From contig NZ_LR593886.1 of NCBI RefSeq assembly GCF_901538265.1, forward strand, positions 1,736,001 through 1,800,000: a DNA stretch of 64,000 bases, read 5' to 3'. The first letter of the stretch is position 1. Every line of letters starts with the position of its first letter. Under the pieces are notes generated by a model. The model had not been told where the DNA came from and searched no databases. It saw only the letters and a program-made list of their open reading frames with translations. This DNA comes from Gemmata massiliana (GTDB lineage: Bacteria > Planctomycetota > Planctomycetia > Gemmatales > Gemmataceae). The translations under genes were made by a program, and so were the position numbers. Shown one piece after another: positions 32,355 through 42,458 of this stretch.

Positions 32355-32423
32355 GAGCGCAAAAAAGGACCGGTCGCGGACTTCGGAGCGTCGCCCATTC
32401 ACTCCGATGTACCACGACCGGTC
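32355..32423 (+). ncRNA. Two-stem hairpin element, copy A
   Basis: GAGCGC and an A-run precede a nested hairpin. The outer stem is GACCGGTCG (32368-32376) with 32415-32423. The inner stem is TCGGAG (32383-32388) with CTCCGA (32402-32407). The apical loop contains GTCGCCCATTC. Copy B at 33270-33338 has the same flank and loop, but different stem sequences that still pair. That covariation is what RNA or single-strand DNA structure conserved by selection would show. Transcript, strand and function are not known. Confidence 0.55.
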
Positions 32424-32690
32424 TAAAGGCAGAATACCTGCGCGACACAGTTGTGCACACCCGAAGTGGGCGGAAATTCCTCGAACACCAAAAGCTAGCG
32501 TCCGAATTTCAGACAGGGCGCGAACGGAAGTGACCCGCGTCGAGTAACTTTGCATATTTCTGCAATAAAGTTCGCGCCGAAAGAGAATCAGGCGAAATCT
32601 CAACAAGACCGCAAATCGTCTTCTACGGTTGTGTTGTCTGATCCAACTCGCTCGTCGCTCCGCCCAAAACGCCCCGAACACCAACGAGAT
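32424..32690. other. Noncoding interior of the duplicated element, copy A
   Basis: These bases lie between the first and second structured motifs. I find no plausible gene. A local inverted repeat (AACTTT at about 32546 with AAAGTT at about 32567) is visible. The interior does not align clearly with copy B. Confidence 0.35.
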
Positions 32691-32770
32691 TTGTTCCGGT
32701 TCGCCACTCGGAACCCCAGCCGGGTCGGGTTGAGGCCGTTCCACGCGCCCTCGCTTCCCCGAACCGGCGG
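32691..32770 (+). ncRNA. Second conserved hairpin motif, copy A
   Basis: GCCGGGTCGGG (32719-32729) pairs with 32758-32768 at 10 of 11 positions. The 28-base loop begins TTGAGGC and ends GCCCTCGCTTC. The block from TTGTTCCGG onward aligns with copy B at 33590-33667, including that loop. An alternative 8-bp pairing CCGGTTCG/CGAACCGG also exists here. It ends 63 bases upstream of the 32834 gene, so a cis-regulatory leader role is possible. Confidence 0.5.
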
Positions 32771-32833
32771 GTTCACACACCCGCCCGCCGCGACTGACTG
32801 TTTGAGCACACGTTCGTTTATACCGAGGTCATA

Positions 32834-33136
32834 ATGTCTCAAGTGCCGCAGACCGCGACTTTGGCCCAGGCCATCGAAGAAGCTCAAGTGCCCTCCCCGG
32901 TCGAATCGCGGGACAACTGGCGCGAAGAGACGATTCGGGCCGGGGTGCTCGTGGCTCTGGGGCGCCCGCAGCAGTTGCTCAGGGTATCGGTCCGTGCGCT
33001 GTGGGGAGACAACTACCGGGTTAACGTCTGGACCGGCGAGAACGCATCGGCCACGGTTCCCAACAGCTACTTCGTGACGGCCGACGAACGGGGCCTGATC
33101 CTCCGGTCGGAACCGCCCATTCAAAAGCAGTATTGA
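32834..33136 (+). CDS. Hypothetical protein, 100 residues
   Basis: A small protein starting MSQVPQTATLAQAIEEAQVP, with GAGGT before the ATG. The second half is beta-rich (LLRVSVRALWGDNYRVNVWT, TVPNSYFVTADERG). I do not recognise the family. It is sandwiched between the two copies of the structured noncoding element: copy A ends 63 bases upstream and copy B begins about 130 bases downstream. Confidence 0.6.
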   Translation: MSQVPQTATLAQAIEEAQVPSPVESRDNWREETIRAGVLVALGRPQQLLRVSVRALWGDNYRVNVWTGENASATVPNSYFVTADERGLILRSEPPIQKQY

Positions 33137-33269
33137 TACACCGTCAAAGGTAAGCTTAGCTTTGCAGAACCTGTAGCTGCTGGAAGCTTCGCTCGGGTTT
33201 GGTGATGTGAATGTAAGCTGTTCTTGGAACAGAACCTCAGTTCCCGAAGCTGCCAACGCAATTGAAATG

Positions 33270-33338
33270 AGCGCGCAAAAAGATCGGCCGCTAAATCATC
33301 ACACTGTCGCCCATTCAGTGTGATAATCGCGGCCGATC
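33270..33338 (+). ncRNA. Two-stem hairpin element, copy B
   Basis: GAGCGC plus A-run, then outer stem GATCGGCCGC (33282-33291) with GCGGCCGATC (33329-33338), inner stem ATCACACT (33298-33305) with AGTGTGAT (33317-33324), and loop GTCGCCCATTC (33306-33316). The loop is identical to copy A over 11 bases while both stems differ yet remain fully paired. Confidence 0.55.
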
Positions 33339-33589
33339 TACCGTAATATTACACTCTGTTCACACCTGGTTTACGCGCAAAGCCTAATAAACACCAAGAT
33401 TCTCGCCGCGGTTACAACTGGATTCGCGCCATAGTCGCAATTTTCAGTAGCTGCGAAACACTCTGCGAATTCTCATTAGTTCTTTCGAGATGTCTGCGTT
33501 AGGATAACGTCTAACCTACCGTAGGGGCTTTGCTCTCGCTAAGACACGGGATTCGCACGGTCGTTCGTTAACTGTGTGATCCTGCCGAA
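33339..33589. other. Noncoding interior of the duplicated element, copy B
   Basis: No credible gene: frames here are short and lack good starts. The stretch is richer in A+T than the surrounding coding DNA. It separates the two structured motifs of copy B by about the same distance as in copy A. Confidence 0.35.
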
Positions 33590-33675
33590 TTGTCCCGGCT
33601 CGCCCTCGGGACGCCGCCCGGATTGGGTTGAGGCTGCCTCGTGCCCTCGCTTCCCCGATCCGGGCGGTCTTTTTC
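33590..33675 (+). ncRNA. Second conserved hairpin motif, copy B, with T-run
   Basis: GCCCGGATTGGG (33616-33627) pairs with 33654-33665 over 12 bp with one G-T wobble. The loop starts TTGAGGC and contains GCCCTCGCTTC as in copy A. It is followed by GGTCTTTTTC, so in this copy it could end transcription. The stem sequence differs from copy A while pairing is kept. Confidence 0.5.
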
Positions 33676-33873
33676 TGTCGTGCAAGTTGCGCAAATTCCC
33701 CCTCAACTTTACAACCCATGACAACCGCGCTCAACAGTGCGCGGGCCTATCGGTATCCTTCATCTCAAACGCTCCGCGAGTAGTCGCTCAACTATCACGG
33801 GTAGCTCCGCAACACTTATATGCCCGGTGGGGTGAGTGCGAACTCGTCGAATGAGATTGATAGGTGAACGCGG
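33676..33873. other. Upstream region of the WD40-like gene
   Basis: No gene found apart from a 21-codon frame at about 33718 that I do not support. TATATG at about 33819 could be a -10 box, but no matching -35 is clear. Confidence 0.3.
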
Positions 33874-42386: not shown

Positions 42387-42458
42387 GCGGGTGTAACTCA
42401 GTGGTAGAGTACCTCGTTGCCAACGAGGTTGTCGTGGGTTCAAGTCCCATCACCCGCT
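42387..42458 (+). tRNA. tRNA-Gly(GCC)
   Basis: A complete 72-base cloverleaf: acceptor GCGGGTG/CACCCGC, D arm ACTC..GAGT with loop AGTGGTA, anticodon stem CCTCG/CGAGG with loop TTGCCAA (anticodon GCC), variable loop TTGTC, T arm GTGGG/CCCAT with loop TTCAAGT, discriminator T. CCA is not encoded. It lies upstream of tig. Confidence 0.95.

Follow-up and report, generated by a model that had tools for sequence, protein, structure and literature searches.

Multicopy sRNAs, sponge RNAs and antisense RNA pairs each offer partial parallels to the hairpins described here. The Qrr1-5 RNAs of Vibrio are multicopy sRNAs with a common core and sigma54-dependent promoters, and they are Hfq-dependent and longer. 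Sponge RNAs of the CsrB/CsrC and CrcZ types carry many repeats of a short motif and titrate a protein, while RNAI and RNAII of ColE1 are an antisense kissing-loop pair. LhrC of Listeria monocytogenes is, according to PMC4132741, a multicopy short sRNA with redundant pairing sites, which binds Hfq, yet whose stability and target interaction are independent of Hfq.

The window considered here, a 64,000-nt stretch of Gemmata massiliana DNA, contains two hairpins of a family that resembles LhrC in having several copies of one short (putative) sRNA per genome. LhrC has CU-rich sites and copies under one two-component system, whereas the Gemmata hairpins keep their loop while the stems diverge, appear to use two sigma types, and are encoded alongside a divergent, motif-rich RNA (element B). 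With Qrr1-5 they share the multicopy habit, a common core and sigma54-type promoters, but in Gemmata the RNA would consist of nothing but the hairpin, and sigma70-type boxes accompany most copies. Element B is like CsrB, CsrC and CrcZ in being a predicted noncoding RNA with a repeated short motif, but its repeats are complementary to an RNA loop rather than protein-titrating. As in RNAI/RNAII, a short hairpin RNA would start pairing with another RNA through its loop; unlike that pair, hairpin and B do not overlap as antisense transcripts of a single stretch, and the copies would act in trans. On the sequence comparisons below, the family probably functions in the manner of a multicopy sRNA that has an encoded sponge. 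The best reading overall, to which a probability of roughly 0.6 can be given, is that the hairpins are seed-sharing sRNAs and the B RNAs their encoded sponges.

The two hairpins of the window (Table 1) are tandem duplicates 916 bp apart, each preceded by an A-run, with the loop GTCGCCCATTC at 32390-32400 in hairpin 1 and 33306-33316 in hairpin 2. Both had been picked out in a first-pass annotation made from the letters alone, and their presence and positions hold: for either copy and on either strand, the fold of a 101-nt stretch is more stable than all 200 of its shuffles (z of -5.1 and -5.2 for the minus strand and of -3.6 and -5.8 for the plus strand), and the trimmed minus-strand RNAs reach z of -6.2 and -8.1. 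The loop, described there as a fixed 11-mer, is constant in both copies, but the constant block is 12 nt long and includes the A after the loop. The stems, said to pair perfectly, nearly do so: read on the plus strand, copy 1 closes its loop with C·A, the minus-strand counterpart of which is U·G.

Table 1. Coordinates of predicted features in the window.
Feature	Position	Strand	Remarks
Predicted sRNA, copy 1	32361..32424	-	Hairpin 32368-32423, then U-run (plus-strand A-run 32361-32366)
Loop block of copy 1	32390..32401	-	Invariant 12 nt, UGAAUGGGCGAC
-10-like box of copy 1	32431..32436	-	TATTCT; 7 nt off hairpin base
-35-like box of copy 1	32454-32459	-	TGTGCA; weak, 3/6
Element B, copy 1	32693..32784	+	Small hairpin, loop with UUCGCC, then terminator-like hairpin; 75.8 bits
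Predicted sRNA, copy 2	33277..33340	-	Hairpin 33282-33338, extra A-T pair 33281/33339, then U-run
Loop block of copy 2	33306..33317	-	Invariant 12 nt
-10-like box of copy 2	33346..33351	-	TAATAT; 6 nt off hairpin base
-35-like box of copy 2	33368-33373	-	TAAACC; weak, 3/6
Element B, copy 2	33592..33680	+	Small hairpin, loop with CUCGCCCU, then terminator hairpin and TTTTT; 92.3 bits

When 74 non-redundant hairpins are aligned to a two-helix structure, 88.4% of 1255 cells are standard pairs (66.8 +/- 0.8% in shuffles), 15 of the 17 pairs have changes on both sides, cells with such changes number 263 against 78 shuffled, and the covariation score is 0.607 against 0.217, the relatedness of the hairpins being able to inflate covariation relative to shuffles. 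Slid versions of the structure, over which one named from the first sequence is inherently favoured, give at most 48.8% pairing. At six outer-helix pairs 15-21 cells are unpaired, a result of other stem classes being out of register in this part of the alignment, and the true pairing is therefore probably higher than the figure measured. The stems fall into several sequence classes (GACCGGCCGC, GTCCCGCCGG, GGGCGGGAT, GCGGGGTGAC and others) and have diverged around an unchanged loop, whose full 12 nt are invariant across the 74; since the loop was part of the patterns or models with which most instances were detected, and TTTT too in many cases, the constancy of the loop and the presence of U-runs are partly selected. 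All 20 distant members read individually retain UGGGCGA (partly selected for as well, since these were found with a loop-scoring model), and they differ in the bases ahead of it (UGACUGGGCGAC, UGAUUGGGCGAC, UGAGUGGGCGAC, CGAAUGGGCGAC). Further copies with a constant loop and covarying stems, on whose existence the first-pass annotation had made its proposal depend, are thus present. Its structured RNA under selection is borne out by the covariation, the further copies and the G·U strand bias, with the RNA on the strand opposite to the one it had read. It is very probable that the minus strand encodes a genuine, hitherto undescribed family of hairpin RNAs conserved in the loop; with conservation confined to the loop, this family is of a kind that ordinary sequence searches miss.

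The strand can be judged from the 74 hairpins folded both ways: G·U pairs number 188 on the minus strand (as in the window) and 35 on the plus strand, the minus strand is the more stable in 62 and the plus strand in 12, and the loop is closed by U-A in 42 hairpins and by U-G in 32, the latter becoming C·A on the plus strand. These three observations together argue for an RNA made leftwards in the window. A plus-strand reading, with the ATAATAC after the hairpin as a plus-strand -10, was dropped: the conserved positions fit minus-strand TAnnnT, and the plus-strand C·A mismatches are U·G on the minus strand.

Sequences flanking the hairpins suggest where such an RNA would begin and end. A TAnnnT ending 5-7 nt ahead of the hairpin base is present in 67 of 92 instances and never on the opposite side (shuffled mean 4.0, maximum 9); 14 of 106 loop instances had been removed by name before counting (L160-L168, L184, L186, L187, L008 and L206, the last two arguable). 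TAnnnT is combined with a TTG at a spacing of 16-18 in 56 of the 92 (0.5 in shuffles, maximum 3). A sigma54-type box (YGGYNS-N7-GC) lies 9-16 nt ahead of the base in 14, with none on the opposite side (0.46 in shuffles), and these boxes sit ahead of stem classes other than the TAnnnT-bearing ones. Neither box is found, by looser criteria, in eight of the 92, three of which have a correctly placed TTGACC-N17-TAAAGA. The window's own copies have fair -10 boxes and weak -35 boxes. At least four T occur within 10 nt past the hairpin in 90 of 92, many instances having been found with a TTTT-containing pattern; hairpin and U-run together are 55-72 nt long (median 64). If no RNA began with the hairpin, it would be difficult to account for promoters of two kinds directed at the same spot, and to judge by these sequences the RNA would have its own promoter and terminator, the stand-alone unit of a trans-encoded multicopy sRNA. 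By eye, an AT-rich stretch like GAAAAAACTGACAC also recurs upstream of the -35 box in many copies (e.g., L097, L111, L120); it is possibly an UP element or operator.

The loop 12-mer with TTTT occurs in all 19 genomes of the genus, where a reversed-pattern control gives 0 throughout, and in 32 of 95 genomes (7 of 39 genera) of the family. A model built from 16 copies matches 17 of the 19 genus genomes (E <= 0.1), and one built from the 74 non-redundant hairpins matches 76 of the 95 family genomes, in 34 of 39 genera (E <= 1e-4); the window's genome accounts for 14 of its matches. Matches in a class sample (40 of 198 genomes) belong to the window's family in 39 cases, and in one, weak (2.2e-5), to another family of the same order; the loop pattern is present in 10 of 392 genomes of a phylum sample, the window's own included, and the other nine look like chance by eye. 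Among named genomes, 112 stretches contain the loop with T6. On 80 listed loci of these, model R3 scores at least 52 bits at 23, in records titled Gemmata, Gemmataceae, Fimbriiglobus, Isosphaera and unplaced Planctomycetota, Planctomycetia or Planctomycetaceae; nine more rows score 21-33 bits, three of them the opposite strand of true matches and six from other phyla (e.g., Clostridia, Bacillus), the latter probably chance. At L310 and L311, two family hairpins stand in tandem. On contig 1 of genome G000 all nine strong matches to the first model (at least 53 bits) are on the plus strand, whereas orientations are mixed in three other genomes (G002, G012, G016); the uniformity may be chance.

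With Rfam 15, the sole match in the window is a tRNA at 42387-42458, no family reaching its gathering threshold for the hairpin, and at E <= 0.1 twelve loci yield a tRNA and one sub-threshold miRNA match; by these searches the hairpin belongs to no Rfam family. A search of open-access literature found no paper on small-RNA regulators of Gemmata; Rhodopirellula-1 is named for Proteobacteria and Planctomycetes in a table row of PMC2864571.

The scanned neighbors of the hairpins show no common function. Those in the window are an MFS transporter and a WD40-like protein; elsewhere they include DabA, a cyclophilin-domain protein, SurE, two ECF-type sigma factors, DUF1328, an ABC ATPase and, at one locus, an MCP with a sigma54-activator response regulator. 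Hairpins of the GTCCCGCCGG class lie divergent to one metallophosphatase gene at all 17 genus loci tested (one of them a short 57-aa match), and likewise at 3 of 14 loci tested outside the genus, a placement that fits vertical inheritance of a core copy with later multiplication.

Element B begins 303 and 286 nt to the right of the two window loops, the unit of hairpin and B (A-B) being duplicated there. An unselected count for the genus gives 38 B matches, and for 29 of them a hairpin of like orientation lies no more than 800 bp upstream. Of the remaining nine, G016 holds four and G009 one, and the other four, all weak (E > 0.005), are in G003 and G013; a sensitive search found no hairpin beside three of the G016 copies. 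The G009 copy lacks a nearby hairpin because an inversion has moved it away: in this close relative about 326 kb of contig 4 separates the halves of the A1-B1 unit (L002, L010), which are on opposite strands, with the breakpoint within the intergenic spacer, at about 32582-32586 of the window. A tandem pair of B elements in G016 (L013, G016:C1:8921645-8921897) has no recognizable hairpin sRNA adjoining and is perhaps an orphan sponge. Hairpins are found in 17 of the 19 genus genomes and B in 9, some hairpins having no B found nearby; the 86 loci searched for B were mostly chosen for holding a hairpin. In 14 B sequences, 96.5% of cells are paired and 10 pairs are changed on both sides (2.6 in shuffles).

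What connects the two elements is a motif. TCGCCCA occurs 73 times in 33 A-B regions (shuffled mean 1.9, maximum 11), TCGCCC 123 times (12.0, maximum 25), and the reverse complement TGGGCGA 0 times (0.7). In a count of all 7-mers ahead of B, with none singled out in advance, made in 32 of the 33 regions (the second tandem B of L013 was omitted here and from the box and duplex counts below), TCGCCCA has the highest total, 65 with the next at 35, and it is present in 15 regions, as is ATCGCCC, the joint highest figure (maximum 8 in 20 shuffles). As RNA, UCGCCCA is the exact complement of UGGGCGA, the stretch of the loop that distant members retain. One locus (L093) has 13 copies of TCGCCCA ahead of one B, with unequal spacers and no reading frame kept. 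On the B strand a sigma54-like box is present in 18 of 32 regions (4 on the reverse strand; shuffles mean 2.8, maximum 7), at region position 110-148 in 17 of the 18, with the first TCGCCC 14-28 nt after it in 12. Sites complementary to the putative seed, as a sponge would need, precede B in 15 of the 33 regions; the other 18, the window's two included, have no TCGCCCA there. The two window B RNAs also lack a sigma54-like box; the loops of their small hairpins hold TTCGCC or CTCGCCCT, and the first has CGCCCAAAACGCCCC upstream as well. Such motif-poor regions count against the pairing, as does the loop-B duplex energy, a weak signal with z <= -2 in just 4 of 32 B RNAs. On balance it is fairly probable that pairing with UCGCCCA RNAs is how the loop acts, B being the sponge.

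Two observations concern genes beside B. At L096 (2566-4121), B is convergent with a sigma54-activator response regulator gene (PF00158 and a receiver domain) about 36 bp away, and an MCP gene lies on the other side of the A-B unit. In the window, a small protein (about 95-100 aa) that matches nothing in Pfam is encoded at 32834-33136, on the same strand and just downstream of B; a similar small protein follows B at L095 (2811-3095), DNA for its C-terminus recurs in L004, and it may have been duplicated along with the A-B unit.

No mRNA target for the loop emerged from sites in the genome or from upstream regions in the window; the loop's seed is complementary to the UCGCCCA arrays. The window's genome has 44 TCGCCCATTC sites, 13 of them within hairpins; the remaining 31 were read, and most are in or antisense to long open frames, with no mRNA target among them. 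From -60 to +30 of the 52 genes called in the window TCGCCCA occurs 0 times, permuted heptamers averaging 0.38. Hfq (PF17209) was found in 0 of 19 genus genomes by a search that was positive in 5 of 14 control genomes, so that an Hfq-dependent sRNA is not what the genus appears to offer.

This bears on another possibility, that the sRNA stands but its loop binds a protein, the UCGCCCA RNAs not being its base-pairing partner. The whole 12 nt are constant in the 74 hairpins, more than a 7-nt seed needs, and many loci have no UCGCCCA RNA; since Hfq was not found, the protein would have to be another one. A shared protein would not predict, however, that the enriched motif is the exact complement of the distantly kept part of the loop, and this account is unlikely. 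Roles could also be reversed, C-rich B regulating G-rich mRNA sites and the hairpins serving as decoys that remove it. C-rich sRNA motifs of low-GC Gram-positives, which pair with ribosome-binding sites, are a precedent, and B RNAs are multicopy and often behind sigma54-type boxes. But TGGGCGA occurs 0 times and GGGCGA once from -60 to +30 of the 52 window genes, and the hairpins are more widespread than B, some having none found, which leaves the reversal quite improbable.

Hairpin and U-run are also the anatomy of an ordinary intrinsic terminator of leftward transcription, whose loop, given the tandem duplicates here, might be constant merely through recent duplication. That the stems have diverged into classes and the loop has not argues against this, as do the promoter-type boxes 5-7 nt ahead of the hairpin, which would leave no transcript body to terminate; such a terminator is very improbable. 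The alternative raised in the first-pass annotation, a mobile-element end, or more generally a DNA hairpin recognized single-stranded, draws on the many dispersed copies in some genomes, the duplicated A-B unit and a transposase gene adjoining one copy (L094). This transposase, the only one in a Pfam scan of the neighbors of own-genome copies, is of the IS4/5 DDE type, not the IS200/IS605 type that had been envisaged. The RNA-type G·U bias, the promoter and U-run anatomy, the metallophosphatase place kept at 17 of 17 genus loci, and model matches in 0 of the 31 viral contigs with the loop pattern all run counter to a mobile element, which is scarcely credible. An integron attC site was set aside too: attC sites have conserved R and L boxes in the stem and a variable loop, the opposite of the constant loop and variable stem here.

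Assuming that the hairpins are seed-sharing sRNAs and B their sponge, each hairpin would be the gene of a minus-strand small RNA of about 64 nt, transcribed from the base of the hairpin onward under a sigma70-type promoter or, where the stem class is another, a sigma54-type one. Hairpin and U-run would terminate their own transcription, and activity would reside in the loop. Each genome's copies (14 matches here) would display one seed, UGGGCGA, on stems that drift yet pair, so that different promoters would supply a single pool. The divergent RNA B, found at many loci and often preceded by a sigma54-type box, would carry UCGCCCA up to about 13 times and its own terminator; most likely it would capture sRNA loops when a sigma54 activator fires, altering expression of the sRNA targets. 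Extended to the Gemmataceae, this becomes a tentative proposal: a family-wide, Hfq-independent network of up to about 14 sRNAs per genome with one 7-nt seed, and with complement-array sponges under sigma54 control, may integrate sigma54 and housekeeping signals.

The hairpin family spans 34 of 39 genera of its family, including a genus without detected Hfq, and a B with up to 13 perfect loop complements is a directly testable partner for it. If the proposal is true, sigma54 signals and housekeeping transcription meet at a single RNA seed, and the Gemmataceae would provide a natural case of an sRNA pool and its encoded sponge evolving together.
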